Shown: positions 2,314 to 19,261 of the stretch, piece by piece | Layout: every line of letters begins with the position of its first letter | Position numbering within the stretch: position 1 is the stretch's first letter | Origin: Gemmatales bacterium | GTDB taxonomy: Bacteria > Planctomycetota > Planctomycetia > Gemmatales > HRBIN36 | Direction of reading: 5' to 3' | Length of the DNA: 33,804 bases | Assembly: GCA_025055835.1 (NCBI GenBank) | Contig: JANWWR010000160.1 | Coordinates: 1-33,804, forward strand | Notes under the pieces: model-generated | What the model saw: the letters and a program-made list of their open reading frames with translations, nothing else | Told to the model about the DNA's origin: nothing | The model's database searches: none | Made by a program: the position numbers and the translations under genes

Positions 2314-3435
2314 CTAGTCGTTGTTTTTCGACATGAGTTGGGCCAGCCAGCGGGTTTCCTCGATGCTGGCGAGGACGGACTTGATGACGACCAGCAGCGG
2401 CACGGCCAAGAGCATACCGACGATGCCCCAGATGCTGAACCAGAAGGCCAGAGCGACCAGAATCAGCAGCGGACTGAGGTTGAGCCGATGCCCGGCCAGA
2501 AGCGGTTCGATGATCAGGGCGACGATGTTTTGCAGCACGGTGAGGACCACGACCACGGCCAGGGCGGTCCCCAGCGAGCGCATCTGCACGAGGGCCAGCA
2601 ACGTCGGCAAGACCACGGCCACGAAGCTGCCCAGGTAGGGAATGAAGTTGAGCAGGAAGGTGAGGATGCCCCAAAGGATCGGGTAGTCCACGCCGAACAG
2701 GAACAGGGCGATCGTCGTCAGTGCTCCGATCAGGAGGCTGACCAGCGTTTTGACGGAGATGTAGCGTTCGATCAGGTCGCTGGCATTGCCGAGGACTTCC
2801 CGAACGGTGTTGGCCCGCTCGGCCCCGAAAGCGCGATTGATGCGTTCGTTGGCCCCGGCCACTTCCCACAGCAGAAACACCAGGTAGATCGCCACCAGGA
2901 CGAGGTACGGCACGATGCCGAGGACCTGGCCCAGCATCGCCCCGAGCCGTTGCAGGTTCTGCTCGGCGTCCCGAGAGCCTTCGATGGCGGTTCGCAAAAC
3001 GGCATCATAAATCCATTCCGGCAGCTGGTTCTGAAGCTCCTCGGTCATGGCCTCGAAGTTTTCCCGGTAGGTCGGCGCCTTGACGAGAAAGTCCTGGAAA
3101 TTCGTGTAGATCAGAGTGCCCAGGCCGAAGGCCAGTCCGGAGGCCATCAACAGGATCACAATGTACGCGGGCAGCAGCGGCATGCCCCGACGCAGCAGCC
3201 AGCGTTGCGCCGGCAGGATGAGATAGACGAGGAACCCGGCGATGGCGACCTGCTGGAGAATGACAGCGAATTCCCGCAGCAGATGGATTGACAGCACGAC
3301 GATGAGCAGACCCAGCGCAGCGACGTGCAGCCGCCGATAGAACCGGGTCGCCGGTTCCCACAGCGGAGGCTTTTCCGGTCCGTTCCCGGCTTCCGGTCTG
3401 TCCGGCGAGTCCGCCAAGCGAGGTGTTGACGTCAT
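2314..3435 (-). CDS. AI-2E family transporter (PerM/UPF0118-like)
   Basis: A 373-residue membrane protein of the PF01594 family. These proteins have about eight transmembrane helices and include the AI-2 exporter TqsA, E. coli PerM and sodium/proton antiporters, so the substrate is not predictable. A Pro-rich cytoplasmic N-terminus is followed by a helix pair (about residues 40-90), a long soluble loop rich in Glu and Gln, then the C-terminal helix cluster with the conserved 'YPILWGILTFLLNFIPYLG' stretch and a final 'GMLLAVPLLVVIK' helix. The open frame runs back to 3951 but overlaps the HdeD gene in another frame. The ATG at 3435 overlaps that gene's TGA (ATGA), which marks it as the real, translationally coupled start. 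Confidence 0.87.
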   Translation of the reverse strand: MTSTPRLADSPDRPEAGNGPEKPPLWEPATRFYRRLHVAALGLLIVVLSIHLLREFAVILQQVAIAGFLVYLILPAQRWLLRRGMPLLPAYIVILLMASGLAFGLGTLIYTNFQDFLVKAPTYRENFEAMTEELQNQLPEWIYDAVLRTAIEGSRDAEQNLQRLGAMLGQVLGIVPYLVLVAIYLVFLLWEVAGANERINRAFGAERANTVREVLGNASDLIERYISVKTLVSLLIGALTTIALFLFGVDYPILWGILTFLLNFIPYLGSFVAVVLPTLLALVQMRSLGTALAVVVVLTVLQNIVALIIEPLLAGHRLNLSPLLILVALAFWFSIWGIVGMLLAVPLLVVIKSVLASIEETRWLAQLMSKNND

Positions 3436-3998
3436 TCGAGCGTCGTGGTCATCAGGCTGCGCAGCGACAACCCGAGCATGATCCAGGACCACCCCTGGAA
3501 CAGCAAGGCGATGCCGATGCAAAGCCCCAGGAAGATTTGGCCCGTCTCCGGCCAGCCGATCAGAATCAGGACGCCCAGCAGAGCGGAGACGATGCCGCCC
3601 ACCAGCGTCCAGCCCCAGTTGGGAAAGCGAATCGCCGTCGCCGCCCCGATGCGGAACGACCCGCTGACGATGAACCACGCCGCCAGCAGGAAGGTGATGA
3701 CCTTGGCGGCTTCGACCGGCCAGGCGATCATGAACAGGCCGAAGACGATGTCCAGAATGCCCAGCAGCAGTTCGAGCAGGAAGCCGTTCCAACGCAGGGC
3801 CAGGAAGGCATGGGCGGTCTGAAACACGCCGGCGAGCAGCACGAACACGCCGAGCAGAAGAATCACGGCTTCGGTCACCACGAGCGGGGCCGCGATCGCC
3901 AGCACGCCTAGCAGCACCAGCAGCACGCCGAGCAAAAAGAAGAATCGCCAACCGCCGCCGATGGAACCAACCGAGGTGACCCAGGGATTCATGCTCAT
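3432..3998 (-). CDS. HdeD family membrane protein (DUF308)
   Basis: A small 188-residue protein made almost wholly of hydrophobic helices, with repeated patterns such as LLLGVFVLLAGVFQ and LLAAWFIVSGSFRIG. This matches the HdeD/DUF308 family, whose E. coli member is linked to acid resistance at high cell density; the molecular role is unknown. Its TGA overlaps the start of the AI-2E-type gene by 4 bp, so the two are almost surely one transcript with coupled translation. An AGGAAG Shine-Dalgarno lies about 11 nt before the ATG. It may be a partner or a general envelope-stress protein; the context does not decide. Confidence 0.85.
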   Translation of the reverse strand: MSMNPWVTSVGSIGGGWRFFFLLGVLLVLLGVLAIAAPLVVTEAVILLLGVFVLLAGVFQTAHAFLALRWNGFLLELLLGILDIVFGLFMIAWPVEAAKVITFLLAAWFIVSGSFRIGAATAIRFPNWGWTLVGGIVSALLGVLILIGWPETGQIFLGLCIGIALLFQGWSWIMLGLSLRSLMTTTLE

Positions 3999-4044
3999 AT
4001 TCAGGGCGACTTCCTTTCGACGTTTCGGGGCCGGATGGAAGACT

Positions 4045-4881
4045 CTACTTCCCCGCGGTAACGGTCAGCGGGATCGTCACGACGGCGGATTTGTTGCCGA
4101 CCAGGTCCCGGGCCGACAGTTCCACCGTGAACTTGCCCGCCCGATTGAGCGTGATCGGGAACTGCATCGGGATGAGCTTGAGGTTTTCGGGAATGTTGCT
4201 GTTCGCTTCGCCGGTGAGCGGATTCTTCAGCGTCGGCTGGCCGTTCTCGTCCAGGATCCGCAAGGCGACACTGACGCGCGGCTGCTTGGAAACCTTGTCC
4301 CGCTCGAAGCCGACGGCGGCGAAGTTCAGGAATACGGTTTCCCCGAGGATGCCGTGGGCCGCCTCGGGGATGAGGGCGTCGGGATCGGAAGAAAAGCCGA
4401 CCTGCACCAATCCGAACCCGTGCGGAAGCACCTCGAACTTCCGCTCGACGGACTTGGTGGTTTTGGCGGCCTGATCCGCGACGGTGATCTTGACCGTGTA
4501 GGTGCCCGCGGGCTGCTCCGTGCCGATTTGCAGATGTGCCGACCCAGGCAGCAGGTTGCCCCCCAGGTAGTTGAGGGCTTCCTGGGATTTAGGTTCCTGT
4601 CGCAGCACGGTTTCCCCTTTGGCGTCCGTGACCAGCATGCCGACGGCGTAGCTGGCCTTGCCTTCGTTGTTGAACTTCAGGCCGGTGATGTGGAAGTCCA
4701 GAAACATCACGTCGCCGGGCAGGTAGCGATTGGCCGAGCGGATCGGACCGTTCGGGCCGTGGGTGAAGTTGACGTTGACGATGTCCAGACTGGCATCCTG
4801 GGCCGCCGCGGCGGTCAGGAGAACAGCAACGATGGAAGCGGTCCCCATGATTCGCTGCACCTCGCTTGAGCGGATTGCCAC
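4045..4881 (-). CDS. Exported Ig-like beta-sandwich protein, unknown function
   Basis: A 278-residue protein with an N-terminal signal peptide (hydrophobic segment from about residue 13, cleavage near AAAAQ-D). The rest looks like two beta-rich Ig-like domains. Phrases such as 'PAGTYTVKITVADQAAK' (about residue 125) and 'AGKFTVELSARDLVGNKSA' (near the C-terminus) are typical of bacterial Ig-like folds. No catalytic motif is seen. The start is ambiguous. The GTG at 4881 gives a positively charged n-region and has GGAG close upstream. The ATG at 4848 has a better-spaced GAGGT but an uncharged n-region. I kept the longer form. It is followed by no close partner gene; function unknown. Confidence 0.7.
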   Translation of the reverse strand: MAIRSSEVQRIMGTASIVAVLLTAAAAQDASLDIVNVNFTHGPNGPIRSANRYLPGDVMFLDFHITGLKFNNEGKASYAVGMLVTDAKGETVLRQEPKSQEALNYLGGNLLPGSAHLQIGTEQPAGTYTVKITVADQAAKTTKSVERKFEVLPHGFGLVQVGFSSDPDALIPEAAHGILGETVFLNFAAVGFERDKVSKQPRVSVALRILDENGQPTLKNPLTGEANSNIPENLKLIPMQFPITLNRAGKFTVELSARDLVGNKSAVVTIPLTVTAGK

Positions 4882-4975
4882 GATTCTCCAAATCGGTTTG
4901 GCTTGTCCTAGTGTCAGAGCTTGTCCTTCGGGGCAGGCAAGGTGGAAAACCGGCCCGGCCCGTTGGCCACCTTCC

Positions 4976-6274
4976 TTATCGCCGGGGTTCGTTCTGGTCC
5001 GGGTTGGGCAGATTCGGCCCGAGGCGGACTCGGAAGCCCGACACAGAGCCGAGGGCCGGAGAGAGTTCCAACTGCATCGCCTGCGCCACCATCGCCCGAT
5101 GGAGATCCACGTAGGCCTCTTCCTGCCCGGCGATGGCCGGAGCGAACCGCAGGTTGTTGGTCATCATGTACTTGACCAGTTGCGGCACGGTGTCGCCCCG
5201 GGCCGAGATCAGGCCATTGAGATAGTCCGCGGCGTTGGGTCTGCGGAGGATGGTGACGGCTCGCCGCAGGGCGTTGAGAAAACGGTTCGCCTGGATGTGT
5301 TGGTTGGGAGTGATCTCGCCGCTGTTGACCTGGCTGTCGAGGTGGTCGCCCAACTTTTCCAGCTCGCCTTCGATGGAGGCATACAGGGCCGAATCCACGG
5401 AACCTTTCGACCGCACCGACTGGACCGCCTCCGGGATCAGCTTGTCGAGCTTCTCCTGGGAAGGACCACGCAGCAGGTCCGGCCAGGGCAGCTTGTCGGT
5501 GAGCAGCAGGCTGACATTGACGCGATCATTGGCAGAGGCGACGGCCACCTGACGGAGTTCGCTCTGGTTCAGCGGGACCTCGGGAACGTTCTGGGCGCTG
5601 GCCAGGCGTTGATTCAATCCCAGGAGCAGGTCGTTGAGCGCTTGGCCGGAGATGATCTGCGACGTGGGCGGATCAGCGAGGCTGCGGCGATAGGCCATCT
5701 CCAGGTCCCGGGCGCGAATCTGCTCCGGAGTGAGCCGGTTCTGCTTCTCCCGCAGAGCCTGTTCGGCGGCGCGGCGGCGGTTTTCGAGTCGAATGGCTTC
5801 GGCTTCGGCTTGAAGACGCTGGGCCTCGGCCTGCTTGACCAGAAAAGCTCCCTGGGCGTTGTAAACGGCGGCGGCACCCTGGAGGTAATCACTGGGGTTG
5901 TACGTGAAGTTGTAAGTGACCGGCGGATAATATCCCCACCAGCCGGGCGGGTAGTACGGATAGTAGGGGTAGTAAGGATAAACAATGGGTGCCCAGGGCC
6001 GGTACATGTTCCACCAGTACGACGAGTTGTACCCGAACCCGTAGCCAGGCAGCAGAAATCCGCCGGGCCGATAGCCCATCGCCGCGTAGGTGTTGCGTAC
6101 CTGCCACGGAGTGTAGCCGTACTGTTGGTAATAGCTGGGCGGGAACCAGTGAGGCAGCAGGCCACCACGGTGCTGGGCGTGGACCGGCTCAGGCCCGGCC
6201 GCCAACAGGCACACAAGACCCGCAAGACACGCAAGAGCCACAGCGGTTGGCCAGCGACGACCGATCAGCGACAT
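4976..6274 (-). CDS. Exported Tyr/Pro-rich coiled-coil protein, unknown function
   Basis: A secreted protein of about 432 residues that I do not recognise by function. A clear signal peptide (positively charged MSLIGRR, hydrophobic core, cleavage near VHA-Q) is followed by a Tyr/Pro/Trp-rich low-complexity stretch with repeated PYY units (about residues 95-125). Next comes an Ala/Glu/Arg-rich segment with strong coiled-coil character (about 145-200, 'QAEAQRLQAEAEAIRLENRR'), then a mainly helical C-terminal domain. The open frame begins with a GTG at 6298, but the ATG at 6274 has AAGGAG about 10 nt upstream and is the likely start. Similar Tyr-rich secreted proteins are frequent in planctomycetes; an envelope role is inference. 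Confidence 0.75.
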   Translation of the reverse strand: MSLIGRRWPTAVALACLAGLVCLLAAGPEPVHAQHRGGLLPHWFPPSYYQQYGYTPWQVRNTYAAMGYRPGGFLLPGYGFGYNSSYWWNMYRPWAPIVYPYYPYYPYYPPGWWGYYPPVTYNFTYNPSDYLQGAAAVYNAQGAFLVKQAEAQRLQAEAEAIRLENRRRAAEQALREKQNRLTPEQIRARDLEMAYRRSLADPPTSQIISGQALNDLLLGLNQRLASAQNVPEVPLNQSELRQVAVASANDRVNVSLLLTDKLPWPDLLRGPSQEKLDKLIPEAVQSVRSKGSVDSALYASIEGELEKLGDHLDSQVNSGEITPNQHIQANRFLNALRRAVTILRRPNAADYLNGLISARGDTVPQLVKYMMTNNLRFAPAIAGQEEAYVDLHRAMVAQAMQLELSPALGSVSGFRVRLGPNLPNPDQNEPRR

Positions 6275-6353
6275 GGCGAAGCGTCTCCTTGAAAGCACTC
6301 CCGAACTCGGGGAGCCAGGCCCAAGCGGGATTGTCCCTCGGTCTCCGCGTGGC

Positions 6354-7658
6354 TCAGGGCCGCTTGTCCGATTCCGGGACCACCTTGGGAGGCAGTTCTC
6401 CCGGCGGGATCAGCGCCTTCCAGCGCCTGACCGCCTCGGCTCGCTTTTCCGGCGGATCGGCGGCATCGAACGGTATCTCACTGCCCGCGGGAACCAGCCG
6501 ATAGAGGTGGTATCGCACCAGTTCCCGGATCATGAGCGAGTCATGATTGAGGTAGGCCAGCAGCGTCGCGTAGAGTTCCGGCGACTCGGCCTCGTGTTCG
6601 CTGAAGCCGTAGAGGAGTTGCAGAAAGCCGGCGGCCTGGGCCGGGCTCAGGTTGAGTTTGCTGGTCAGATGCTCGTAGAGCCGGGCATCGTGCCCCGCCT
6701 GGCGGCCCAGCCAATGCCGCAGAATGATCACGGCCTGTTCCCGCACTTCGGGATGCTTGGGATTCTGAAGGGCGGCCAGCAGACCGTCGAGGTCGTCCGT
6801 GGCTCCCAGCAGCGTCACCCCCATCATGCGGATGCGCGGATCGGGATCTGCCAGGCATTCGGCGGCGACTTTGCCGGGCGGCATTTCGTTGAGCTTTTTG
6901 GCCCGGGCATAAACCGTTTCCGCCTGCTTGCGTTCCTCCGGCGTCAGGGGCCGGGCGAACTGGGGCAGTTCCTCGAGCCGGCGCGGCGCGGCGTCGTCTC
7001 CGTCCACGTTGCTCCAGTGGAAGACCGCCGGTCCGGGTGGTGCGTCCAGAGCGTAGCAGACGCCGTTGCTCGTCAACTCGATCCCGCCATTCAAGACCAG
7101 ACAGTACAAATTCAGCGTGGGTGACTCCTCGGGCTGGAACGGCTTGGAGCGGTCCGCGCCAAAGGGCCGTACCCCGACGGCATGACGACCGACGAGCATC
7201 AGGGCGACCCGGGTTTCGGGTTTCTCCAGGACGATTTCCCACAGGTGTTTGCCGACCCGGACGTTTACTTTGGCTTCGCCACGGTTGCGGCGGTGCTGGA
7301 GAATGACCAGACCGCGATCGAGGGACAAATCGAGATCGACCTCCTTGGGCGGATGGAGGCGGACAGCGCTTTCGTAGATCGGTTCGGGCAGCCGACGCCA
7401 CAGGTCGGCCAGCATTTGCAGGCGGACGTTGCCGTTGAGCGAGTCGATTTCTGCTTCCGGGAGGGCCAGCAGCAGCGTCTCGGCGGGGACCGACACGCCG
7501 GGCTTGACGGGCTTCCAGGTCGGGCCTTCGCCCCGCTGGAGCAAGGCCCCCGGCACTGCCGCCACCTTCCCAGCCGGCGGACCCTCGGCCCAGGCCGCCG
7601 TTGCTCCCAACACCATCAGCCCAACCGCCGCCAGACCTGCCCGGATGATCGTCTTCAT
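6354..7658 (-). CDS. Exported FecR-like / HEAT-repeat protein
   Basis: A 434-residue exported protein. Residues 1-24 are a signal peptide ending AWA-E. The next roughly 200 residues resemble a FecR-type beta domain: a value-setting start ('VPGALLQRGEGPTWKPVKPGVSV'-like), 'LDRGLVILQHRR' and 'LNGGIELTSNG'. The C-terminal half has helix pairs typical of HEAT-like repeats, for example 'DPDPRIRMMGVTLLGATDDLDG' around residue 270 and 'HPEVREQAVIILRHWLG' around 305. Planctomycetes often have FecR-like periplasmic proteins outside iron-signalling operons, so a regulatory role is not implied. No sigma-factor gene is nearby. It has its own promoter-like sequence upstream. Confidence 0.72.
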   Translation of the reverse strand: MKTIIRAGLAAVGLMVLGATAAWAEGPPAGKVAAVPGALLQRGEGPTWKPVKPGVSVPAETLLLALPEAEIDSLNGNVRLQMLADLWRRLPEPIYESAVRLHPPKEVDLDLSLDRGLVILQHRRNRGEAKVNVRVGKHLWEIVLEKPETRVALMLVGRHAVGVRPFGADRSKPFQPEESPTLNLYCLVLNGGIELTSNGVCYALDAPPGPAVFHWSNVDGDDAAPRRLEELPQFARPLTPEERKQAETVYARAKKLNEMPPGKVAAECLADPDPRIRMMGVTLLGATDDLDGLLAALQNPKHPEVREQAVIILRHWLGRQAGHDARLYEHLTSKLNLSPAQAAGFLQLLYGFSEHEAESPELYATLLAYLNHDSLMIRELVRYHLYRLVPAGSEIPFDAADPPEKRAEAVRRWKALIPPGELPPKVVPESDKRP

Positions 7659-7697
7659 GACTCGGCTCGACCCCAGGGAAGTTTCGCGTACGCCGCA

Positions 7698-7726
7698 ATT
7701 ATAGCTTGAGCTTAGCGATACGCCAG
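7698..7726 (-). promoter_or_regulatory. Sigma70-type promoter for the FecR-like/HEAT gene
   Basis: On the minus strand a perfect TATAAT (-10, at 7703-7698) follows CTGGCG (weak -35, 3 of 6 matches, at 7726-7721) with a 17-bp spacer. Transcription would start about 33 nt before the ATG at 7658. The perfect -10 stands out in this GC-rich DNA. It suggests that the FecR-like gene is transcribed separately from the amidohydrolase-like run upstream of it. Confidence 0.55.
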
Positions 7727-7779
7727 CGAATCCCGCTGCTTCCCGATTTCTGGCAGATTCAAGCCGGAAAGGACTCAGC

Positions 7780-9231
7780 TCACCGCTTCGTCTGGGTAGT
7801 GCTCTTGGGACGGTTCGGCAGATCGGGGTAGATGTTTTCCCGCACCCGGTCGTAGTAGACCTTGCCGCCGACCAGGGCCTTGTCCACGTGGGAGTGGTAG
7901 TCCAGTGGCGGGCCGGTGAGGATGAGCAGGTCCGCGTCCTTGCCGATTTCGATGCTGCCGATGCGCTTGTCGAGACCGAGCATCCGGGCCGGGTTGATCG
8001 TGATCGCGGCCAGGGCGGTGTCGTCGCTGCATCCTCCGCGAACCGCGAAGGCGGCTTCGAGCATGAGGCTGGTCAGGTCCCGACCGGGAATGCCGTCGAG
8101 ATTCACGGAATTGCCCAGCGTCGCCACGGCGAACGGCACGCCGGTCCGCTCCAGGATGCCCGCGGTTTCGATGGAACTGCCGGTCGAATCCTCCTTGCCC
8201 AGTTGCGGCCGACGTCGGCTCCGCGGCGTGAGGATGACCTGAGCCTGAGCCTCCTTGAGTTCTTCGGGAATCAGCCACGCTTCATGGACGCCTTCAAGAA
8301 TGACCGCGTATCCGAGTTCCTTCGCCAGGGCCAGCGCAGTGCGGATCTGTTCCACCGAGGCGGCATCGGTCCGCAGGGGAATCTTCTTCTCGACCAGTTG
8401 CACGACCTCTTCCGGAACCCGCCTTCCGAAGCCGCCACCGAACCCGCCGAAACCGCCTTCGTCCTCCCCTTCGTTGCGATCGCGCACCTGCTCCTTGGCC
8501 CGCTTGATCGTCTCCCGCCACTGGTGCTTGTTGAACGCTCCGGCAAAGGCCCCGGCGGGGAGGTGATAAAACGGCGACTCCTTGACGAGCATGCGGTCCA
8601 GCTCTCCGAACGTCATCCGCAGCACGGCATGGCGCCGCGGCGTCCGCTCCGTGGGATTGGGAGCGGTGATCGGCTCCAGCGGCAGATAGGTCATGCCGCA
8701 GCAGGGGCAGACGTTGGTTTCGTCGAGTTCTTCGAGATCGAGGGCATCCCGACCGAAGCGGCCGGTCCCGCCCCCGGAAACTTCCACGCAGGCCGTCGTG
8801 ATGCCCGACGCCAGGCAGAACAGGATGTTGCGATCGTAGGGGTTGATGGCGTCCACGACCCGGCCGGTGACGCCCTGCGGCGGGGCAGGCTCGCCGGTGC
8901 GGCCCCGTGCTCCGGTGCCGGTGCGGATGCCGACGTTGGAGGCACTGATGGCGACGAAACCCGGCGTCACGCATTTGCCCGCGGCCTCGATCCGAAGAGC
9001 GTTCTCGGGAATGGCCACGTCCTTGCCGACCGCGGCGATCTTGCCGTCCTGAATCAACACCGTGCCCCGCGGAATGACTCCGTGCGACACCGTGTACACG
9101 TCGCCGCCCACGATGGCGATGGGCGGGCTGGTCGGCTTGGCGCTTTGGGAGTCCTTGTTCTCCTCGGCAACGAGCAACGAGGCCATCATCATCAGGAAGG
9201 CGAGGCCGAGGATCGGGCGGTCACTGCGCAT
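7780..9231 (-). CDS. Exported amidohydrolase-like protein, degenerate metal site, CPCC motif
   Basis: A 483-residue member of the imidazolonepropionase-like amidohydrolase family (COG1228 type), last gene of the seven-gene run. A signal peptide (residues 1-22) precedes the N-terminal beta domain with 'QDGKIAAVGKD'. The C-terminal 'IGKDADLLILTGPPLD' is well kept. The catalytic ligands are not: the beta-1 HxH is S96-A-S98, the beta-5 His region reads LRTDAAS, and the beta-8 Asp region reads VATLGNSV. A CPCC motif (residues 175-178, coding at 8698-8709) and a Gly/Phe-rich insert near residue 260 are peculiar to this copy. Its ATG overlaps the upstream gene by 11 bp, indicating co-translation. 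It is probably not an active hydrolase. Confidence 0.82.
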   Translation of the reverse strand: MRSDRPILGLAFLMMMASLLVAEENKDSQSAKPTSPPIAIVGGDVYTVSHGVIPRGTVLIQDGKIAAVGKDVAIPENALRIEAAGKCVTPGFVAISASNVGIRTGTGARGRTGEPAPPQGVTGRVVDAINPYDRNILFCLASGITTACVEVSGGGTGRFGRDALDLEELDETNVCPCCGMTYLPLEPITAPNPTERTPRRHAVLRMTFGELDRMLVKESPFYHLPAGAFAGAFNKHQWRETIKRAKEQVRDRNEGEDEGGFGGFGGGFGRRVPEEVVQLVEKKIPLRTDAASVEQIRTALALAKELGYAVILEGVHEAWLIPEELKEAQAQVILTPRSRRRPQLGKEDSTGSSIETAGILERTGVPFAVATLGNSVNLDGIPGRDLTSLMLEAAFAVRGGCSDDTALAAITINPARMLGLDKRIGSIEIGKDADLLILTGPPLDYHSHVDKALVGGKVYYDRVRENIYPDLPNRPKSTTQTKR

Positions 9232-10480
9232 GGGTTATCCTCCCATCAATGATCGTGAGCCGGAGTCGGCTGGCGGGGTCGAGCGGATCGCCGGTGAATA
9301 ACAGCAGGTCGGCCGCCTTGCCAGGTTCGATGCTGCCGTGCGTCTTCTCGCAGCCCAGCAGGGCCGCGGGTTTTTTCGTCAGGGCTTCCAGGGCGATTTG
9401 GCGGGGCAACCCCGTCTTCACCTGCATGGCCACGGGGAACAGCGGGAAATCCCGTTCCACGCCGGGCACGGTCTGCTGTTCTTCCTCCTGTTGCTGCTGT
9501 TGCGTCGGCGGCGTGATGGCCGGAGGACGCGGCGGACGGGCCGTCAGACTGAAGACGACCTCGACGCCATTCTCATGCAGCATTCGCGGAGCACTGAAGC
9601 GGTCCCGCGACGCCGGCAGGAAATCGAAGCGGGGCCGAAGCACGACGCAGACTTTGCGTTCCTTCAGCAGCGGCAGGGTTTCCGGCACGGCATCTCCCGC
9701 GACGAACAGCACGAGTTTGACATCCGGGTACGCTTGCAGGAACTTGACCACGTGGACGACCGCAGCGGCGGTGTTGGCCTCGACCAGGAGCGGCTTCTTG
9801 CCTTCGAGCACATCCTTCCACGGGTCGTTGAGTGCGGCGGACGGAGCCGGAGCGGTCGCGGAGCCCGTCGGCGCAGGGCCGGAACCTCGACTTCCACGCT
9901 GCAGGCGGGAACGAATCTGATCGAGGCTTTCCGTGGAGTTCGTGACGCTGGCGTAGATCGGACCGTCGGGCTGGACCAGCATCGTTTCCGGCTGGTCCGG
10001 GGTGCAGCGGATGACCGCCGCCTGGCCGACGCCGCTGGAGACCACGTTCGCCCGGCAGATGCCGACCCGGGGCAGCGGCTTGAGGCCGGGGTCGTAGGGG
10101 TAGAAATTGTCGGCGATGCGGGTGAAAGCCGACGCGGTTCGTCCGCCGAACCCGCCGCCAAATGGGAAGGGCCGACCGCGTATCACCGTCGTCCGTTCGC
10201 CGCTGTCCGAGCTCGCAGGGGTGATGGCGACCTGGAAATACGGATCCACGATGCCTGGCATCAACGTTCCGCCTTGGGCGTCAATTACCCGGGCGAAGTC
10301 GGGCACGGGCACATCCTTGCCGACGGCCGCGATCTTGCCGTCGCGGAGAATGACCGTGGCTCCCTCCAGACGGCCCGCCGGTCCGAGCGTCTCGACGACG
10401 GCATTATGGATCACCACGGTCTGCTGAGCCGCGGCCAGCACGGGAACACACAGCAACACGCAAAAGGCGAAGCACCGCAT
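9221..10480 (-). CDS. Exported amidohydrolase-like protein, degenerate metal site
   Basis: A 419-residue amidohydrolase-like protein with signal peptide (cleavage near AAA-Q). The N-terminal 'LRDGKIAAVGKDVPVPD' and C-terminal 'SIEPGKAADLLLFTGDPLD' match the family. The HxH after 'MPGIVDP' is replaced by Y81-F-Q83. The beta-5 His site reads LLVEANT, the beta-6 site FVAGDAV, and the beta-8 Asp site VVFSLTAR, so every expected ligand is missing. A Gln/Glu-rich low-complexity insert sits near residue 330. It starts 2 bp after the stop of the intact amidohydrolase and overlaps the next gene by 11 bp. The placement beside the intact enzyme suggests a partner or pseudoenzyme role; this is inference. 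Confidence 0.82.
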   Translation of the reverse strand: MRCFAFCVLLCVPVLAAAQQTVVIHNAVVETLGPAGRLEGATVILRDGKIAAVGKDVPVPDFARVIDAQGGTLMPGIVDPYFQVAITPASSDSGERTTVIRGRPFPFGGGFGGRTASAFTRIADNFYPYDPGLKPLPRVGICRANVVSSGVGQAAVIRCTPDQPETMLVQPDGPIYASVTNSTESLDQIRSRLQRGSRGSGPAPTGSATAPAPSAALNDPWKDVLEGKKPLLVEANTAAAVVHVVKFLQAYPDVKLVLFVAGDAVPETLPLLKERKVCVVLRPRFDFLPASRDRFSAPRMLHENGVEVVFSLTARPPRPPAITPPTQQQQQEEEQQTVPGVERDFPLFPVAMQVKTGLPRQIALEALTKKPAALLGCEKTHGSIEPGKAADLLLFTGDPLDPASRLRLTIIDGRITHAQ

Positions 10481-10482
10481 GG

Positions 10483-11730
10483 TCAGAACCGCCGCCTGTC
10501 TTTCTTCACGTCGTACACCGACCTGCCGTCGATGAACACTTCCACCACATAGTGCCGGGGATCGAGGATCGAGCCGGTGGTGATGACGATGTCCGCGTCC
10601 TTGCCGACTTCCAGCGAACCGACGCGGTCTGCGATCATCAGGGCCTTGGCCGGTTCGATGGTCAGGCCGCGGATGGCATCCTCGTCGTTCCAGCCGAGCC
10701 GGACCGCCATCGTCGCCTGAAAAGCCAACTCCTCCTGGGGCACGACCGGCGAGTCCGTGTTGACGCCGAGGGCCTTGACGCCGCGATCCGCGAACCCCGC
10801 TACCTGGCCTTTCACCTGCCCGTCGGCCGGGTCGTAGCGGAAGCCGCGCGGCCCCGCCATGACCGGAATGCCCCGCTTGAGAATCTCCTCGGACAGCAGA
10901 TTGCTGTCAAAGCAGCCGTGGCCGATGATCACCTTGAGGTTCATCTCGTCGTGCAGAATCCGCAGCGTGCTCATGATGACCTGGTAGCCCTGGGTGTGGA
11001 CCAGCACGGGGATCTGACGGCGGAACAGCGGCTTGAAGTATTCCAGGCGGAGATTGACGGCGGGCTTGTCGGGCCGACGACCGGCTTCGTAGTCGTCCCA
11101 GTCCTTGACGTAGCCCATGCCTTCACGGAGCTGTTCGCGGATGATGTGGTTCATGCCCATGCGTCCGCTGCCGACCTCGCCGCCGCGCCGCTCCGGGTTG
11201 CCCGCCTGAGCGATCTTGAGCACGCCGGGGAAGCGGATGAGCACGTCTTCGAGCTTGCCCGGTCCGGTCTTCATCAGCGCGCCCCAGCCGCCCATGTTCG
11301 TGCCGGAACCGGGGATGAAAGTGATCGTGGTGACGCCGCCAGCCACGGCGATTTTCAGCTGTTCGTTGTGCGGCCGGATCACGTCCAGCACCCGCAGTTC
11401 GGGATTGGTCTGATAGACCATCTCGTTGATGTCGCCCATCGCGCCGCCGATGTGGCTGTGGGCGTCGATCATGCCCGGCATGGCCCAGCGGGTGCCGTGA
11501 TCGATGACCTGATAGCCCTCCGGCACGACGACCTCGCCGCGCTTGCCCACCGCCTGGATCTTGCCGTCGGCGACGAGAATGGTGGCGTTCTCGATGGGGT
11601 CGCCGGCGCAGGTGATCGCTTTGGCGACGTGAATGGCCAGCTTCGGCTTCTCCGCCGCCCCGACCGGGGTGGCCAGCAGAATGGCCGCCAGACTCAGCCC
11701 GATGCCGTGCCAGGGATTTTGTGCCGACAT
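10483..11730 (-). CDS. Exported amidohydrolase, intact metal-binding set
   Basis: A 415-residue exported amidohydrolase of the imidazolonepropionase-like group, the only module of this run with a complete site. The ligands are H91 and H93 (DAHSHIGG), H245 (PVLVHTQG), H271 (IIGHG) and D326 (VNTDSPV). K172 in 'LKIAQAGNPER' is a likely beta-4 position. A signal peptide (about residues 1-25) ends near VGA-A, so it acts in the periplasm. The open frame extends to 11799, but the ATG at 11730 gives a proper signal peptide and avoids overlap with the upstream gene. The family hydrolyses cyclic amides, amino-acid amides or dipeptides; the substrate here is unknown. It lies in the middle of six relatives with degenerate sites. 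Confidence 0.88.
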   Translation of the reverse strand: MSAQNPWHGIGLSLAAILLATPVGAAEKPKLAIHVAKAITCAGDPIENATILVADGKIQAVGKRGEVVVPEGYQVIDHGTRWAMPGMIDAHSHIGGAMGDINEMVYQTNPELRVLDVIRPHNEQLKIAVAGGVTTITFIPGSGTNMGGWGALMKTGPGKLEDVLIRFPGVLKIAQAGNPERRGGEVGSGRMGMNHIIREQLREGMGYVKDWDDYEAGRRPDKPAVNLRLEYFKPLFRRQIPVLVHTQGYQVIMSTLRILHDEMNLKVIIGHGCFDSNLLSEEILKRGIPVMAGPRGFRYDPADGQVKGQVAGFADRGVKALGVNTDSPVVPQEELAFQATMAVRLGWNDEDAIRGLTIEPAKALMIADRVGSLEVGKDADIVITTGSILDPRHYVVEVFIDGRSVYDVKKDRRRF

Positions 11731-11773
11731 GGAGATATTTCCCGCAAAGTTCCAGGGCATTGTCAACCCCGTG

Positions 11774-14170
11774 TCACTCGTGAACCCATTCTCCGTCAAT
11801 CATCACGGCCAGGACGCGCGTCGCCGGGTCGAAGGGCGGGCCGGAGAGCACGACGAGATCGGCGTCCTTCCCCGGCGTCAGCGTGCCAATCTGCCTCAGC
11901 CCCAAAAGCTGGGCCGCCCGAGCGGTCAGACCGTGCAGGCCGTCGGCGGGAGCCAGACCCCGATGCACGGCGTAGCCGACCGCCTGGGGCAGCAGCCGCG
12001 ATCCCTGGCCCGCCTGCGATTGAAAGCCGAAGGTCACGCCGCCCAGGGCCAATTCCATCGGCAGGTTGGTTTCGCCCTCGTCGGCGCTGCGGACCAGTTG
12101 CGGACCCACGATCACGCCGACGCCTTTGTCCGCCAGAAGACCGACGACCCGCGGCGCATCCTCGGCCCCGACGAGAATGAGCCGAACATCGAACTCATCC
12201 CGGCAGATGGCGACGGCCAGGCGGATCGCGTCCTCCCGCTGGGCTTCCACCAGCGCGGGAATCCTGCGGGCGAACAAGGCTCGATACGGCTCCAGGGCCG
12301 GATTCGTCTGCGGACGCTCCGGAGCACGCGGCGGTTCCGGCTTCTTCTCGTCCTTCTTTTCCTCGGCTTTCTGTTCCTGTTGCTCGGACGCCGCCCGAGC
12401 CTGCTGCTGAGCGGCGATCTGGGCGTCGTACTCCTTCTTCTTCTGTTCGTAGATCGGCAGTTCCTTCTCGTAGCGGTCCCAGGCGTCGGCGTAGGTCCTG
12501 CCGGCCCGAAGCGTTTCCCGCAGGGACGATGCCGAGGACGACAGATTGCCCCGCAAAGCGAAACGCAAGGCCACCGGATCCTGGACGACCCGCGGGTTGT
12601 CCGTCGGCTTGTAAGCGACCACGGCGGCAGTCGCGGGACCGGAAAGCAGCACGGTGGTGATGCCGGACTGGCGCACGGGCTTGTAGGCCGGATCGGCGAC
12701 GACCAGCCGTTCTCCCAGCCGCGTTTGCAGCGGCACGGCGGCATTGAGCGACCCGCCCACGCCGAATGTCACGCCCATGTCAATGAACCCGGGAACGATC
12801 ACGGCATCGGAAAATTCCTGTACGACGACGTCGGGCGGCTGAGCGACTTCCCGGCCGACGGCTCGGATTTTGCCCTGGTCAATGAGGATGGCCGCGTCGG
12901 TGAGCACCTCGCCGGTCCCCGTGTGAATCCGAGCGGCCCGCAGCAAGCGGCGCGGGCTTCGACCTTCTTCCGGGCCGATCCGCTCACCGTCCCCATAGAC
13001 CTGTCGGATTCGCGTCTGCACGGCGAAGGGTGGTCCACTGAGGACGACGAAATCAGCATCCTTGCCCGGAGCCAGCGTGCCCACCCGATCGGCGACTCCC
13101 AGCACCGCCGCGGCATCGGCCGTGACCAGCCGCAACGCTTCGACCTCGCTGAGCTGCGGTCGAAACTGCCCGGCCAGATAGAGCAGATCTTTCAGGTCGG
13201 CATCTTGAACGGGCTTGATGGCCACGGGCAAGCCGGCGGAAAGAATCTGCCGAGCGAGGTCGGCGGGAGGTCGCGGCGGTGATCCGTCACTGATGACCCC
13301 CGGGCGGACGCCGACATTCAGCACCACGCCCTCGACGTGCGGCTTCCACTCGGCCACCCGGGTGCCGGTCAGATTCGGTTCCACGAGGACCAATCGCAGG
13401 TCGAACTCCTTGGCCAAGGCCAGCATCGCCGGAACATCACCGGCCGCGGAAGCCGTGACACGGACGCGGACCTTCTCGGTCCACGGCAACGCCAGGGCGT
13501 TCAGGATCGGGTCGGTTTGCGGACCGCGATTGCGAGCGGCGAGGAAAGCGCCGCGCAGCCCGGCAACGGCGGCGGCGAGGCTGCCGGCCAGCTGCGGCTG
13601 TGTCGGCTGAAGCGGCCGGTCCACGGAAACGGCCCCGACTGGCGGCTCGTAGATGCGCGGCGGGTTCTTGTAGGCGTCTCCCAGGAGGATTCTCAGGCTT
13701 TCCGGGGCCTTCACGATGCGACGGTCGAAGTCGGTGCCGTGAAGTTTGATGACGGCCCCTTGACCGGGAAGCAATCGGCGGGAACCCGGTGACACCTGGA
13801 CAGTCGTGACGCCGCCGGACAGAGCCGCCGCGTAATCGCCGTACCAGTCGAAGCCGTCCACGGCCCGGTGATGCGGGGTCAAGGCGTAGGCGTCGTCCCG
13901 GCCGGACTCGGCCAGCGACGTTTCCGCGGCGATCAGTCCGGGAATGATGACCGCCTTGCCCAGGTCCTGCCGAACCGCTCCTTCGGGAACCGTCACCTCG
14001 CTGGCCTTGCCGACCGCGAGAATCTTGCCGTCCTGCACGACCAGCACGGCATCGGCAATCGGCGGACCGTTGCCCGGCCACAATTGGGAAGCGCGATAAG
14101 CGCGAACTTCTCCGGCCGAGATCGGAGCCAGTGATGCTGCCAGGATCACCAGGGCGGACGCGAATCGCAT
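11774..14170 (-). CDS. Exported tandem (two-module) amidohydrolase-like protein, degenerate
   Basis: A protein of 798 residues that contains two complete amidohydrolase-like modules in tandem behind one signal peptide (ends near ISA-G). Module 1 (about 20-400) has 'QDGKILAVGK', 'IIPGLIAAE' and 'LAPGKDADFVVLSGPPF'; module 2 (about 410-798) has 'DQGKIRAVGREV', 'IVPGFIDMG' and 'LTPGKDADLVVLSGPPFD'. Neither has an HxH: module 1 has E83-T-S85 and module 2 has G-V-T. The beta-5 and beta-8 ligands are also lost (for example VTASAAG and VEAQRED in place of the His). A Lys/Glu/Gln-rich probable coiled coil interrupts module 2 near residue 600. The ATG at 14170 is preferred to a GTG two codons upstream. 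Confidence 0.82.
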   Translation of the reverse strand: MRFASALVILAASLAPISAGEVRAYRASQLWPGNGPPIADAVLVVQDGKILAVGKASEVTVPEGAVRQDLGKAVIIPGLIAAETSLAESGRDDAYALTPHHRAVDGFDWYGDYAAALSGGVTTVQVSPGSRRLLPGQGAVIKLHGTDFDRRIVKAPESLRILLGDAYKNPPRIYEPPVGAVSVDRPLQPTQPQLAGSLAAAVAGLRGAFLAARNRGPQTDPILNALALPWTEKVRVRVTASAAGDVPAMLALAKEFDLRLVLVEPNLTGTRVAEWKPHVEGVVLNVGVRPGVISDGSPPRPPADLARQILSAGLPVAIKPVQDADLKDLLYLAGQFRPQLSEVEALRLVTADAAAVLGVADRVGTLAPGKDADFVVLSGPPFAVQTRIRQVYGDGERIGPEEGRSPRRLLRAARIHTGTGEVLTDAAILIDQGKIRAVGREVAQPPDVVVQEFSDAVIVPGFIDMGVTFGVGGSLNAAVPLQTRLGERLVVADPAYKPVRQSGITTVLLSGPATAAVVAYKPTDNPRVVQDPVALRFALRGNLSSSASSLRETLRAGRTYADAWDRYEKELPIYEQKKKEYDAQIAAQQQARAASEQQEQKAEEKKDEKKPEPPRAPERPQTNPALEPYRALFARRIPALVEAQREDAIRLAVAICRDEFDVRLILVGAEDAPRVVGLLADKGVGVIVGPQLVRSADEGETNLPMELALGGVTFGFQSQAGQGSRLLPQAVGYAVHRGLAPADGLHGLTARAAQLLGLRQIGTLTPGKDADLVVLSGPPFDPATRVLAVMIDGEWVHE

Positions 14171-14209
14171 AATCACCCGTCAACAAGGCGAAGCCGAGGC
14201 AGCGTGGTG

Positions 14210-15631
14210 CTACTCGGCTTCGGGTTTCAGCAGGGCCTTGATCTTCCGGTCGTTGGCACGTTCATAGACGATCCGTCCGTCCACGATCGTCGTTTCAACC
14301 CAGGTGTCGAGCTTGAGCGGGTCGCCGCTGAGGATGACGACGTCGGCCGCTTTGCCGGGCTCCAGGGAACCGCGGCTGTCGGCGATGCCGAGCACCTCCG
14401 CGGGACGAAGGGTGATCGCCCGCAGGGCCTCGTCGTAGGGCACCCCGTATTTCACCGCCGTGGCTGCCTGGAACCACAGATAGTTCGTGCCGAGCATGGG
14501 CGGCTGGCTGCCTCCGCCGCGGCCTCCTCCCGCGGACTGCGTCGGCGTCACCGTGAATGTCACGGGCACGCCGGCCTCCCGGTACAGCTTCGGCAACACG
14601 ATCTGCTTCTCCTCCCCGCTGCGGGGATCGGTTTCCCAGAGAACCAGCGTGGGTTCCAGAATGACCGGCAGGCCCGAGGCGGCGACTTGTTTGACAGCCC
14701 GATGACACTGCGGACCGAGCACCAGCACGCCACGCAGCTTGTAGTCCTTGACCAGGCGAATGGCCTGGGGCACGTCCATCGGCAGTTCGCAGTAGATGAA
14801 GGCGAGCTGCTCGCCCTTGAGAAGCCTGGCCAGGGCGGCACGGACGAGGGCGGCGTCAGGATTGGTCTCCTGGCCGGGCTGATCGCCGCCGCCGGGACGG
14901 GGCCGACGCTGCTGAGTGTCCTCGTCGTCATTGGCCGCGGCGGACTCACCTCCTCCCCCGGGCGGGTCGGCTGGCTCGGCGTTGCGAGCTTCCGGGGAGC
15001 CGGTGCCCCCCTTGGCGTCCGGCGCCGGCTGCGGCTGAGCCTGCGAGGTACGGCCCCGCTCGGTCATCGCCTCCCGAGCGGCATCGAGTTCGCGTCGGAT
15101 GGCCGCCACCTGACCCATGCGGTTGCGGTCGCCGGTCGGTCGCAGGGAAATCTTGATGCCGATGTCCCGCTTGATCAGCATCTCGTTGAGGAACTGGCCC
15201 GACGTCCGCACAATCGCCGCCTGTCCGCCGAAGATCGTGTTGTTTCCCGGCACGATGGCCGCGGTCGTGATCCCCTGCCGCCGACATTCCTCGAAATAAT
15301 CCTGGCTGGGATCGATCGCATCCACCACGGACAGAAACGGCACGATGGGGTTGGTTTCGTTCGTCTGGTCCATGCCGCGCGAGGAATGGACTTCGATCAG
15401 ACCGGGAACGACCACCTTGCCCGTGGCGTCGAGCACCTTGGCTTCGGAGGGAATGGGCACGTCCTTGCCGACGGCCTCGATCTTGCCGTTGCGGAGGACG
15501 ATCACGCCCTGCTCGATGACCGGGCCGGAAACGGGCAGAATCTTGCCCCCTTTGATGGCCAGCACCTCGTCGGCGGAGGCCAACCCCGCCGTGGCCAGAA
15601 GCAGCGGCAAAACGAAGGTGTGACAACGCAT
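14210..15631 (-). CDS. Exported amidohydrolase-like protein, half-degenerate HxH
   Basis: A 473-residue exported amidohydrolase-like protein; the signal peptide ends near ASA-D. Family signs are 'LRNGKIEAVGKDVPIPSE', 'VVVPGLIEVH' and 'LEPGKAADVVILSGDPLK'. It keeps only the first histidine of HxH (H82, then S83 and S84), so it is a partial intermediate between the intact copy and the fully degenerate ones. The beta-5 site reads FIYCELP and the beta-8 site FTVTPTQS. A long Pro/Gly/Gln-rich low-complexity insert lies around residues 190-245. The frame extends to 15700; the ATG at 15631 is chosen because it begins a canonical signal peptide and lies 2 bp after the upstream stop. Confidence 0.82.
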   Translation of the reverse strand: MRCHTFVLPLLLATAGLASADEVLAIKGGKILPVSGPVIEQGVIVLRNGKIEAVGKDVPIPSEAKVLDATGKVVVPGLIEVHSSRGMDQTNETNPIVPFLSVVDAIDPSQDYFEECRRQGITTAAIVPGNNTIFGGQAAIVRTSGQFLNEMLIKRDIGIKISLRPTGDRNRMGQVAAIRRELDAAREAMTERGRTSQAQPQPAPDAKGGTGSPEARNAEPADPPGGGGESAAANDDEDTQQRRPRPGGGDQPGQETNPDAALVRAALARLLKGEQLAFIYCELPMDVPQAIRLVKDYKLRGVLVLGPQCHRAVKQVAASGLPVILEPTLVLWETDPRSGEEKQIVLPKLYREAGVPVTFTVTPTQSAGGGRGGGSQPPMLGTNYLWFQAATAVKYGVPYDEALRAITLRPAEVLGIADSRGSLEPGKAADVVILSGDPLKLDTWVETTIVDGRIVYERANDRKIKALLKPEAE

Positions 15632-15633
15632 AG

Positions 15634-16782
15634 TCACGGCTCCTCGGCGCGGATGACGCCGTCGATCATGGTCCACAACACGCGGCTGGTGCCATCCCAC
15701 GGATCGCCGCTGAGGGCGACGAGATCGGCATCCCGTCCCGCCTGGATGCGGCCGACCCGCTGTTCCAGTTGCAGCACCCGGGCCGGCTGCACGGTGATCG
15801 CTTCCAGGGCGGCATCCTTCGGCAATCCGAAGCGGACGGCAAAGCGGGCCTGATCGAGCAGATCGCCGCCGGTCAGGCAGAACGGAATGCCGGCCTCGTG
15901 CAGAACCCCCGGGAGGTTCAAAATCGTCTCCGTGCTTTCCGGTCCGATTCCCGCGCTGGTGCTGAGCGGAGCCAGAAGCACGGGCACTTTCGCCGCCGCG
16001 ATCTGCTGCCGGACGCGATAAGCCTCCTGCCCGCCCACCAGCACCAGCCGCATCGGAAACTCTTCCCGCAGCCGCAGCGCCGCCAGCAGGTCGGTGTCCA
16101 GCCGGCTCGTGCAGAACACCGGCCGCGCTCCGGAGAGCACTTCCCGCAGCACGGCGCGATCCGGCGTCGAAGTCCGCGTCGCCAGGCCGAACTCGCTGCG
16201 CAGAATCCAGACGACGCCCATGCGATTGGTCGGCTGCCGGTTGTAAGGCGAATCGGGACGATTGCGGGAGGAGTTGCCTTCCGTCGGATCGGAGGAGGTG
16301 GTGATGGCCAGGCCGTGATCTTCACGGAGAACCCGGTTCTTGCGGTCGCCGCTGGTCTTGAGGATGCAGCTCAGGCCGCTGATAACGTTGTCCGTGCCGG
16401 GCAGAATATGGACGGTCGTGACACCCTGCTGACACAGCCGACGCAGGGAGGAATGCGACGGGTCCACGGCGTCGCAGGCCCGGATGCGGGGACTGACTTC
16501 GACGGTGGACTCGGTCCGTCCGCCGTCCAGGCCGGCGGAGCTGGCGGCGTCGATGAAGCCGGGCAGAAGCACGCCGGAGCCGAGATCGCGGAAGCGGCTG
16601 CCGGGCGGGATGGCGAGTTCCCCGGCCACGGCGACGATCTTGCCGTCCCGAACGTGAACGACGCCGGGAGCCAGCGGCGGACCATCGAGGGTATAAACCC
16701 GGCTGGCCTTGATGAACAAATCCTCGGCCTGGGCCGTCATCGGCACGACCACCGCCAGGATCGCAAAGCACCAGGGACGCAT
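15634..16782 (-). CDS. Exported amidohydrolase-like protein, degenerate metal site
   Basis: A 382-residue member of the same family with a signal peptide ending near AQA-E. Conserved pieces are 'VRDGKIVAVAGELAIP', 'LLPGFIDA', 'GVTTVHILPGTDN' and 'IQAGRDADLVALSGDPWD'. The HxH is replaced by A80-S-S82; the beta-5 site reads VFCTSRLD and the beta-6 site VLVGGQEA. An Asp in 'CLTGGDLL' lies close to the beta-8 position and may be the only surviving ligand. The frame allows an ATG at 16806; the one at 16782 is chosen because the signal peptide then starts 'MR', as in four other genes of the run. The next gene begins 2 bp after its stop, so the two are probably coupled. Confidence 0.8.
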   Translation of the reverse strand: MRPWCFAILAVVVPMTAQAEDLFIKASRVYTLDGPPLAPGVVHVRDGKIVAVAGELAIPPGSRFRDLGSGVLLPGFIDAASSAGLDGGRTESTVEVSPRIRACDAVDPSHSSLRRLCQQGVTTVHILPGTDNVISGLSCILKTSGDRKNRVLREDHGLAITTSSDPTEGNSSRNRPDSPYNRQPTNRMGVVWILRSEFGLATRTSTPDRAVLREVLSGARPVFCTSRLDTDLLAALRLREEFPMRLVLVGGQEAYRVRQQIAAAKVPVLLAPLSTSAGIGPESTETILNLPGVLHEAGIPFCLTGGDLLDQARFAVRFGLPKDAALEAITVQPARVLQLEQRVGRIQAGRDADLVALSGDPWDGTSRVLWTMIDGVIRAEEP

Positions 16783-16825
16783 TTTCGTTTTTCCGTGACT
16801 TAGCATGACGCCTGTCCGCAGCCGT

Positions 16826-19261
16826 TCAAGGAGCCGATCCGGCGACCCGCTTGCCCTCCACGATCACCGCCACGGGCCGACTGGTCAGGTCGAGCGGATC
16901 GCCGGACCAGATCACCAGATCGGCGGGACTTCCCGGGGCGATTCGGGACGCCGCCGCGGTCGGGGCCAAGGTTTCCACATCGGCGGCGATCAAGGCTCGT
17001 CGCGCTGCCGCTCGGGGCGTCCCGGCCGCTGCCAACACCGCCGCTGTCGTCCGCATCTCCACCGCGTCGCCTCCCAGGGCCAGCGGCACCCCGACCGAAG
17101 CCAGGCGGGACAACGCCTGCACGGTTCGCTCGGCATCGGTCGGTCGGGTCGGAGCGAGGACCACCCCGACCGTCGCGGATCGCAAGACCTCGCCCAGGCC
17201 GTCCACGTCCCGTGGATTCACGAGGAGAATCCGAATTCGAAACTGTTCCGCCAAGCGCAGAGCTGCCTCGATCTCGGCCCGTGTCTGGGCCTCGATCAGC
17301 ATCGGCCAGGCCCGACTGCGAACGAGGTCCAAGCGTCGTTCCCGCTCAGCCAGCAGAGCCTGGCGGATCGGGTCGGGCAGGTACAATCGGGTTTCCGAGT
17401 TCATGCCTCGGATGCGGTCCGAGAGCAGTCCATATTGACCCGCAAGGCTGGCCGGATAGCGATCCCGATTGCGCGCGGAAGCGGTCAGCACACCTTTGAA
17501 GGCGATGTCCCGCGGTGCTCGTTCGGTGATAGCGGGGGTCTTGCCTGCGTCGCTCGTCGGTCCGTCGGTCGGCGTCAGCGTGACGACGCCGGCCAGCACG
17601 TTGGCTGAACCGGGGGCGATGACCGCCCACAACATGCCCGCTTCCCTCTGCGAGCGCAGTCGGGGTTGTTCGGCAAACAGCAGATCGGCGGCGCGAAGAT
17701 GGGAGGCATCAGCGTCTGGAGTCTGTTCCGCCGTCAGCGGAAAATGGCCCGACACCAGGCCGGGGGTGACGGCCAGGTCTCCCAGGTCGATGGTGACGAC
17801 CGAGTTATCGCCTGCCAATTGCGATTCGGCCACGAACCGGCCGTCGCTGACATGCAAGGCTCCTTCCTTCCACGTTCCATCGGGAGCCAGCAGACGGCGG
17901 GTGCGGAGCGTGAAGCGGTTCGGCAGCTTGTCGGGCGTCGAAGTGCCGACCAGCCGGGGCGTCTCGGCGGCCTCGGCTTCCCAATTCTCGTGAGTGATCC
18001 TGCCCTGGCTGATGGCGAGCCGAACCGGCGCGGAGGGATCGAGCGGATCGCCGGCGAAAACGGCCAGGTCGGCAACTCGTCCCACGGCCAAGCGACCGAG
18101 TTTGTCGCCAACGCCGAGCAAGTCCGCCGCTTCGCTGGTCAGGGCACTGAGAACGCGGTTGCGGGGATAGCCGGCCGTCACTGCCGAGGCAGCATGGAAT
18201 CGCAAGGCCGCCGTGCTTTGCGGATCCGATCCATAGGTGCCGATGGCAAACTTGCGGGCTTCGCCGACTCCCTCACGGCCTCCGCTCGAACCCAGGACGA
18301 GATCGCGGATGGCGATTGAAGGTCGCTCCGGCCACAAGGGGCCGATCACCAGGCCGCAGCGGGATTTGCTCAATTCCTCGGGAATGACTCGGCAGCGTTC
18401 AACCCGTTCGAAGACCATCCGCAGGTTGAAGTCGGCAGCGAGACGAAGGGCGTTGCGAACGTCGTCCTCGTAGTGGACCTCCATGCGGACGGGAATGCGT
18501 CCTCGGATGGCCTCGGCGAGCAGTTCCCGGGCGCGGTCTTTGCGGGCCGGGGGATTCTCAGCGTAGCGTTTGGCGGCATCGAATTGGCCGCGAAGCTGCT
18601 CGTACTGCGCGTAGCGGGTCAAGGTAGTGGCTGGAGGAGGAGCGGCGGGTTGCTGCGGTTGCACGGGAATCTGAAAACCGCGACTCCGCAATAAATCCAG
18701 CAACGGGCTGGTCGCTGGGGTCTCGGCCCGCGGAGCGATTCCCAGACACGCCTGGACGGCCGCGGGGGATCGGATCACCAGGTCGGTCGGCGTCTCGGCG
18801 GGAGCGATGCGGAGCACGGCCCCGCTGCCGCCCAGGTTGCCGCTGCCGGCTGGTTGCACGGCTACGGCGGTCACGCCGTGTCGAGCGGCGGTCCGCCAGT
18901 CGTCGGCGTAGGGATCGACGGCGTCGAGGATGTCCAGCGTGCCGTCACGCCCACCTTCGGAAGCCGCCGAAGGATTCAGGCCCACGACGCCGCGAGCATC
19001 CACCAGCCCCGGTGTAATGACGCAGCCGCTGACGTTCACGACACGGGCATTGCCGGGCGGCTGCACGTCCGGCCCCAGAGCGACGATCCGGCCCTTGTCC
19101 ACGACCAGGCAACCGACGAAATCCCCCGCTTCGGTCTGCGTCCGAATCAGTCCGCCGACCAGGGCGAGCGGTTTTTCGTCCGGTTGCTTGTCCGCGGCTG
19201 AGAGTCCCAGGAGGCACGTCCACAGAAGCAGAGCCGGAAAGCCGCCGCGTGGCAAACCCAT
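16826..19261 (-). CDS. Exported tandem (two-module) amidohydrolase-like protein, degenerate; first gene of run
   Basis: An 811-residue exported protein, first and longest of the seven-gene run. A signal peptide (about residues 1-23) is followed by two amidohydrolase-like modules. Module 1 has 'VDKGRIVALGPDV', 'VITPGLVDARG' and 'LAVGRVADLAVFAGDPLD'; the HxH is R90-G-V92. Module 2 has 'AVTPGLVSGHFPL', where only the first His remains, 'PMLIEAQTRAE' at the beta-5 site, and 'ALGGDAVEM', which keeps an Asp near the beta-8 position. Its C-terminus has 'IAPGSPADLVIWSGDPLD'. A Gln/Pro-rich insert lies near residue 205. It starts 103 bp after fabF and no strong promoter is visible between them. Confidence 0.82.
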   Translation of the reverse strand: MGLPRGGFPALLLWTCLLGLSAADKQPDEKPLALVGGLIRTQTEAGDFVGCLVVDKGRIVALGPDVQPPGNARVVNVSGCVITPGLVDARGVVGLNPSAASEGGRDGTLDILDAVDPYADDWRTAARHGVTAVAVQPAGSGNLGGSGAVLRIAPAETPTDLVIRSPAAVQACLGIAPRAETPATSPLLDLLRSRGFQIPVQPQQPAAPPPATTLTRYAQYEQLRGQFDAAKRYAENPPARKDRARELLAEAIRGRIPVRMEVHYEDDVRNALRLAADFNLRMVFERVERCRVIPEELSKSRCGLVIGPLWPERPSIAIRDLVLGSSGGREGVGEARKFAIGTYGSDPQSTAALRFHAASAVTAGYPRNRVLSALTSEAADLLGVGDKLGRLAVGRVADLAVFAGDPLDPSAPVRLAISQGRITHENWEAEAAETPRLVGTSTPDKLPNRFTLRTRRLLAPDGTWKEGALHVSDGRFVAESQLAGDNSVVTIDLGDLAVTPGLVSGHFPLTAEQTPDADASHLRAADLLFAEQPRLRSQREAGMLWAVIAPGSANVLAGVVTLTPTDGPTSDAGKTPAITERAPRDIAFKGVLTASARNRDRYPASLAGQYGLLSDRIRGMNSETRLYLPDPIRQALLAERERRLDLVRSRAWPMLIEAQTRAEIEAALRLAEQFRIRILLVNPRDVDGLGEVLRSATVGVVLAPTRPTDAERTVQALSRLASVGVPLALGGDAVEMRTTAAVLAAAGTPRAAARRALIAADVETLAPTAAASRIAPGSPADLVIWSGDPLDLTSRPVAVIVEGKRVAGSAP

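Follow-up and report, generated by a model that had tools for sequence, protein, structure and literature searches.

The locus described here raises the question why a bacterium should carry, in one tight run, a series of exported amidohydrolase-like proteins of which most modules have no metal site. The window, by which we mean the whole stretch of 33,804 nucleotides that was analysed (contig JANWWR010000160.1 of a Gemmatales bacterium), contains seven intact ORFs on its minus strand between positions 7780 and 19261, transcribed in the order G-F-E-D-C-B-A. The original prediction, made from the letters alone, read them as seven exported amidohydrolase-like proteins with nine modules, and this is borne out. 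The ORFs lie where they had been placed, all seven proteins score above the curated cut-off for Pfam Amidohydro_1/Amidohydro_3 in a profile search, and end-to-end alignment resolves nine modules, with two each in G and D. According to a crude hydrophobicity script, Sec-type N-termini are present in all seven and in nearly all of their counterparts in other arrays. As detailed below, we consider it fairly probable that these genes form an old planctomycete operon encoding a secreted nine-module assembly, in which C would be the catalytic module and the other eight its pseudoenzyme partners.

The first gene of the run, G (16826-19261), encodes an exported protein composed of modules G1 (17984-19258) and G2 (16829-17926). 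It is followed by the exported single modules F (15634-16806) and E (14210-15631), the latter best read from the ATG at position 15631, which leaves a gap of 2 bp to F. Gene D (11774-14176, with a probable ATG at 14170) again encodes an exported two-module protein, D1 corresponding to positions 12968-14176 and D2 to 11777-12958. The ORF of gene C (10483-11799) starts with a TTG codon; the true start is probably located downstream, near the signal peptide. Genes B (9221-10480) and A (7780-9231), both exported single modules, complete the run. The tight packing that had been claimed is real, with an 11-bp overlap between A and B (9221-9231) and 2 bp separating B from C (10481-10482). Gene A contains a CPCCG insert, common to its counterparts in a genome of the same genus (G001) and in one of the same family (G005), which is perhaps a small metal or redox site. 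Other genes near the run in the window encode FabF, HEAT-repeat, AI-2E, ABC-2 and LysM proteins.

In the amidohydrolase superfamily the metal ligands are provided by an HxH motif after strand 1, a K after strand 4, an H after each of strands 5 and 6 and a D after strand 8. Within the window gene C is the sole module with the full set (H114, H116, K195, H268, H294 and D349 in ORF numbering). The earlier list of residues at the HxH position proved right, i.e. HSH in C and SAS (A), YFQ (B), ETS and GVT (D), HSS (E), ASS (F), RGV and HFP (G) in the others, as did the statement that the HxH is kept only in the gene at 10483. Ligand loss extends past this motif: aligned on C, none of the six ligands is present in A, B, D1 (ligand columns E,S,R,T,E,V), D2 (G,T,R,E,G,Q), F and G1 (R,V,Q,E,R,Y). 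Module E keeps only the first H and the K (H,S,K,Y,L,T), and G2, the least fully degenerated module, the first H, the K and the D (H,P,K,E,N,D).

Comparison of the arrays of many genomes gives the same picture, with a full ligand set in 30/30 C modules versus 0/148 of the other array modules, and not one of the six ligands in any of 19 A modules. The ligand columns of C have a mean conservation percentile of 0.97; the corresponding values are 0.51-0.69 for D2, E, G1 and G2 and 0.27-0.46 for A, B, D1 and F, where these positions are among the less conserved columns. In module E, across arrays, the first H is kept in 17 of 18 cases, the K in all 18 and a Y at the H5 place in 16 of 18, together with an invariant C residue, and all of these are among its most conserved columns. 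This modified H/K/Y/C pocket suggests ligand binding instead of pure scaffolding. In two deep arrays G2 has five of the six ligands (H,K,H,H,D; L141, positions 2489-3754, and L142, positions 15580-16830), the second H of the HxH being the missing one, and in these lineages G2 may still be active.

It had been suggested to look for the gene set and the ligand losses in related planctomycetes, and both turn out to be conserved throughout the phylum. The same-genus genome G001 and the same-family genome G005 contain the whole array, in frame and with C alone intact. The module order G1-G2-F-E-D1-D2-C-B-A is invariant in every complete array inspected, including those of other families, orders and classes, even though gene boundaries differ, G1 and G2 sometimes being separate genes or G1, G2 and F being fused. 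A scan of genome contigs with C-specific patterns gave ten matches, in planctomycete or bacterial MAGs, and the complete arrays among them consist of the same seven genes and nine modules with the same order and ligand pattern. The recurrence of array, order and ligand pattern in G001, G005 and many more genomes excludes chance. Of 392 Planctomycetota genomes drawn, 105 (~27%) have a match to C at an E-value <= 1e-60 and 128 a match to gene E at an E-value <= 1e-40, the weaker of the latter including modules of two- and three-module proteins. Among the matches listed, C is found in 102 genomes, E in 104 and both in 100; in 89 genomes E lies upstream of C, in the same orientation and no more than 12 kb away, with a median gap of 3.0 kb, which is about the size of D. 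Within the window's own order the array is present in only 3 of 102 genomes, so that the distribution is patchy. In the arrays inspected no neighbouring gene is conserved beyond close relatives, and this includes transporters and regulators; the gene set thus stands alone. In some arrays C is tandemly repeated two to five times with all copies intact, and the dead modules are single-copy. These tandem copies (L145, positions 7447-13888; L147, positions 7675-12851; L146 and L148) are mostly lineage-specific duplicates.

The paralogues are old. In a FastTree phylogeny of 208 modules every module position forms its own clade, with support of 0.95-1.0 for eight positions and 0.12 for G1. A second tree, calculated without the ligand columns and with single-gene relatives from Bacillota and Actinomycetota as root, recovers the same groups except that G2 splits. 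There the eight dead groups fall together (support 73), adjoining the dead modules found in three-module proteins and in an alphaproteobacterial pair (81), and C and the remaining intact modules are placed outside them; branches inside the dead clade are weak. The simplest reading of these trees would be an early pseudoenzyme branch, arisen beside the active one and grown to eight members in the planctomycetes. In the two-module proteins the dead module is placed elsewhere, which points to at least one separate loss. Independent recent loss of ligands in each genome was considered and rejected: the pattern of every position was already fixed in its own clade, G2 being a partial exception. Mirror-tree correlation between modules has a median of 0.86 overall but is weak among nearer arrays (median 0.57), and it contributes little to the case for an assembly.

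Simpler combinations of active and dead modules exist elsewhere in the order, where proteins of ~900 aa join an intact to a dead module and proteins of ~1400 aa run dead-intact-dead. These planctomycete proteins (L043-L060, e.g. L048, positions 6233-8896, and L047, positions 3669-7946) each combine a single intact module with one or two that lack the ligands. On a plasmid of Qipengyuania citrea (L150, positions 5794-8579) an intact exported amidohydrolase with a lipobox-like N-terminus lies adjacent to a dead partner, with a peptide MFS transporter alongside. Amidohydrolase pieces on a Hymenobacter plasmid (L149, positions 4242-8442) look like a broken three-module gene of the dead-intact-dead type. 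Such fusions or pairs were thus found in Planctomycetota, Alphaproteobacteria and Bacteroidota, and active and dead modules of this subfamily are repeatedly found together, sometimes in one chain.

Retention of the fold in modules without ligands had been proposed as well, and the structure predictions made for D and E are in agreement with it. The AlphaFold models (E: pLDDT 83, pTM 0.79; D: pLDDT 86.5, pTM 0.54) both have as top structure match, by a wide margin, the Thermotoga maritima amidohydrolase 3OOQ, with TM scores of 0.83 for E and 0.82 for D by target length. 3OOQ is also the best PDB sequence match of D and of C (E-value 3e-53), and its sequence aligns a complete ligand set with that of C. 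In the D model, as its pTM of 0.54 reflects, inter-module confidence is too low to place the two modules relative to each other. Module D2 contains a predicted 56-residue helix insert, which is a possible assembly element.

What keeps eight dead modules next to an active one? The missing metal site in eight of the nine could by itself point to a duplication array that is specific to the lineage and losing function, maintained by chance or gene conversion, and a decaying array had been named in advance as the result that would speak against retained subunits. We found neither frameshifts nor relaxed selection. Between the window and G001, NG86 omega amounts to 0.037 in C and 0.062 in A and lies at 0.12-0.17 in the remaining genes, with dS of 0.54-0.95; the suggested dN/dS comparison therefore gives purifying selection on all genes. 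The values for the neighbouring fabF (0.077) and HEAT-repeat gene (0.14) are in the same range, which means that the dead genes are constrained like ordinary genes. In addition, the module clades are far older than the genus and the same pattern recurs in many genomes; with conservation across classes, a pseudogene array is refuted and we attach next to no probability to decay. Selection to keep the dead modules beside an active C is well supported by the phylum-wide set and order, the position clades, omega, the absence of frameshifts and the ligand counts. The other result named in advance as speaking against the idea, alternative ligands in the degenerate barrels, may still apply to E with its H/K/Y/C set and to G2 of the two deep arrays.

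In an alternative reading the eight modules would not be partners of C at all, acting instead as independent exported binding proteins or neofunctionalised enzymes with other sites, co-expressed for one catabolic or envelope function. The conserved pocket of E, the CPCCG insert that protein A has in the window, G001 and G005, and the H/K/H/H/D set of G2 in L141 and L142 are all in keeping with such individual functions. However, in A, B, D1 and F the positions of the former ligands are comparatively poorly conserved, and neither the fixed nine-module set and order over the phylum nor the active-dead fusions are readily explained by proteins that work apart; we therefore regard this alternative as unlikely, if worth keeping in mind. 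Still less probable, in our opinion, is a set of regulators or decoys, in which the dead modules would capture substrate or product and regulate C or its transport, but no stable complex would form. The genes are exported and co-linear, and the related active/dead pair of Q. citrea does lie beside a peptide MFS transporter, but no conserved transporter or regulator accompanies the planctomycete arrays.

We thus return to the secreted nine-module assembly as the preferred reading. C would belong to the 3OOQ-like subfamily and act as a metal-dependent hydrolase of the amide or peptide type. Its centre would probably be binuclear, with a carboxylated lysine as the bridge, and it might cleave an amide bond in small compounds of peptide-like or N-acyl nature. 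The modules A, B, D1, D2, E, F, G1 and G2, keeping the barrel, would hold or stabilise C or feed substrate to it, as a hetero-oligomeric counterpart to the homo-oligomers that are frequent in the superfamily. The fusions and the adjacent pair in Qipengyuania link the two kinds of module, and amplification of C alone into several intact copies is what one would expect if catalytic subunits could be exchanged on a scaffold that stays the same. The original prediction of pseudoenzyme subunits around one active enzyme holds insofar as the dead modules are retained by selection together with the active one, as seen from the clades, omega, co-occurrence and ligand counts; that they physically surround it is the conditional part. 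Tentatively, and with somewhat less than even confidence, we would go further and propose a hetero-nonameric or larger barrel assembly secreted from one operon, phylum-wide, in which one exchangeable subunit is catalytic and eight different pseudoenzyme modules are obligate, the amplification of C providing specificity variants.

How does this compare with known systems? The 3OOQ-like amidohydrolases, comprising the T. maritima protein, which is the best PDB match of C, E and D, and single-gene relatives in Bacillota and Actinomycetota, have the same full H,H,K,H,H,D set as C. They differ from the array in being single genes with an intact site, and no dead partners are present in the four plasmid loci read. 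The planctomycete ~900-aa and ~1400-aa proteins resemble the array in joining one intact module to one or two ligand-less ones; in contrast to it they are fused, have two or three modules instead of nine, and the dead modules among them group apart from the array clades. Plastid ClpP/ClpR and the proteasome are fixed, old paralogue sets in which only some members are catalytic. CCT/TRiC is built from eight paralogous subunits (PMC5413064). All three share with the array a fixed set of old paralogues, but they have unrelated folds and their assembly is proven, where we infer it here. Within the superfamily, the nearest established precedent is the inactive dihydroorotase chain of Pseudomonas aspartate transcarbamoylase (ATCase), whose activity requires the inactive dihydroorotase subunits (PMC7053772). 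As in the proposed assembly, amidohydrolase-superfamily pseudoenzymes are needed there by an active partner (PMC7053772), but there the active enzyme is unrelated to the dead subunit, which is of a single kind and is not exported. We found no description of a nine-paralogue amidohydrolase operon in the open-access literature searched. NCBIfam equivalogs such as those for imidazolonepropionase, Xaa-Pro dipeptidase and dihydroorotase name no member either, since the best-scoring models listed all stay below their curated cut-offs with each of the seven proteins.

The genes of the array are now annotated simply as amidohydrolases, and the eight dead modules misannotated as hydrolases inflate predicted catabolic capacity. 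As about a quarter of the sampled planctomycete genomes contain the array, its role is probably a common one in these bacteria. If the assembly is true, eight dead modules out of nine would be an unusually extreme dead-to-active ratio for a conserved bacterial enzyme system. The natural series from a single gene to an active-dead pair, to fused proteins of two or three modules and to a nine-module operon would lend itself to the study of how pseudoenzyme subunits arise and become obligatory.
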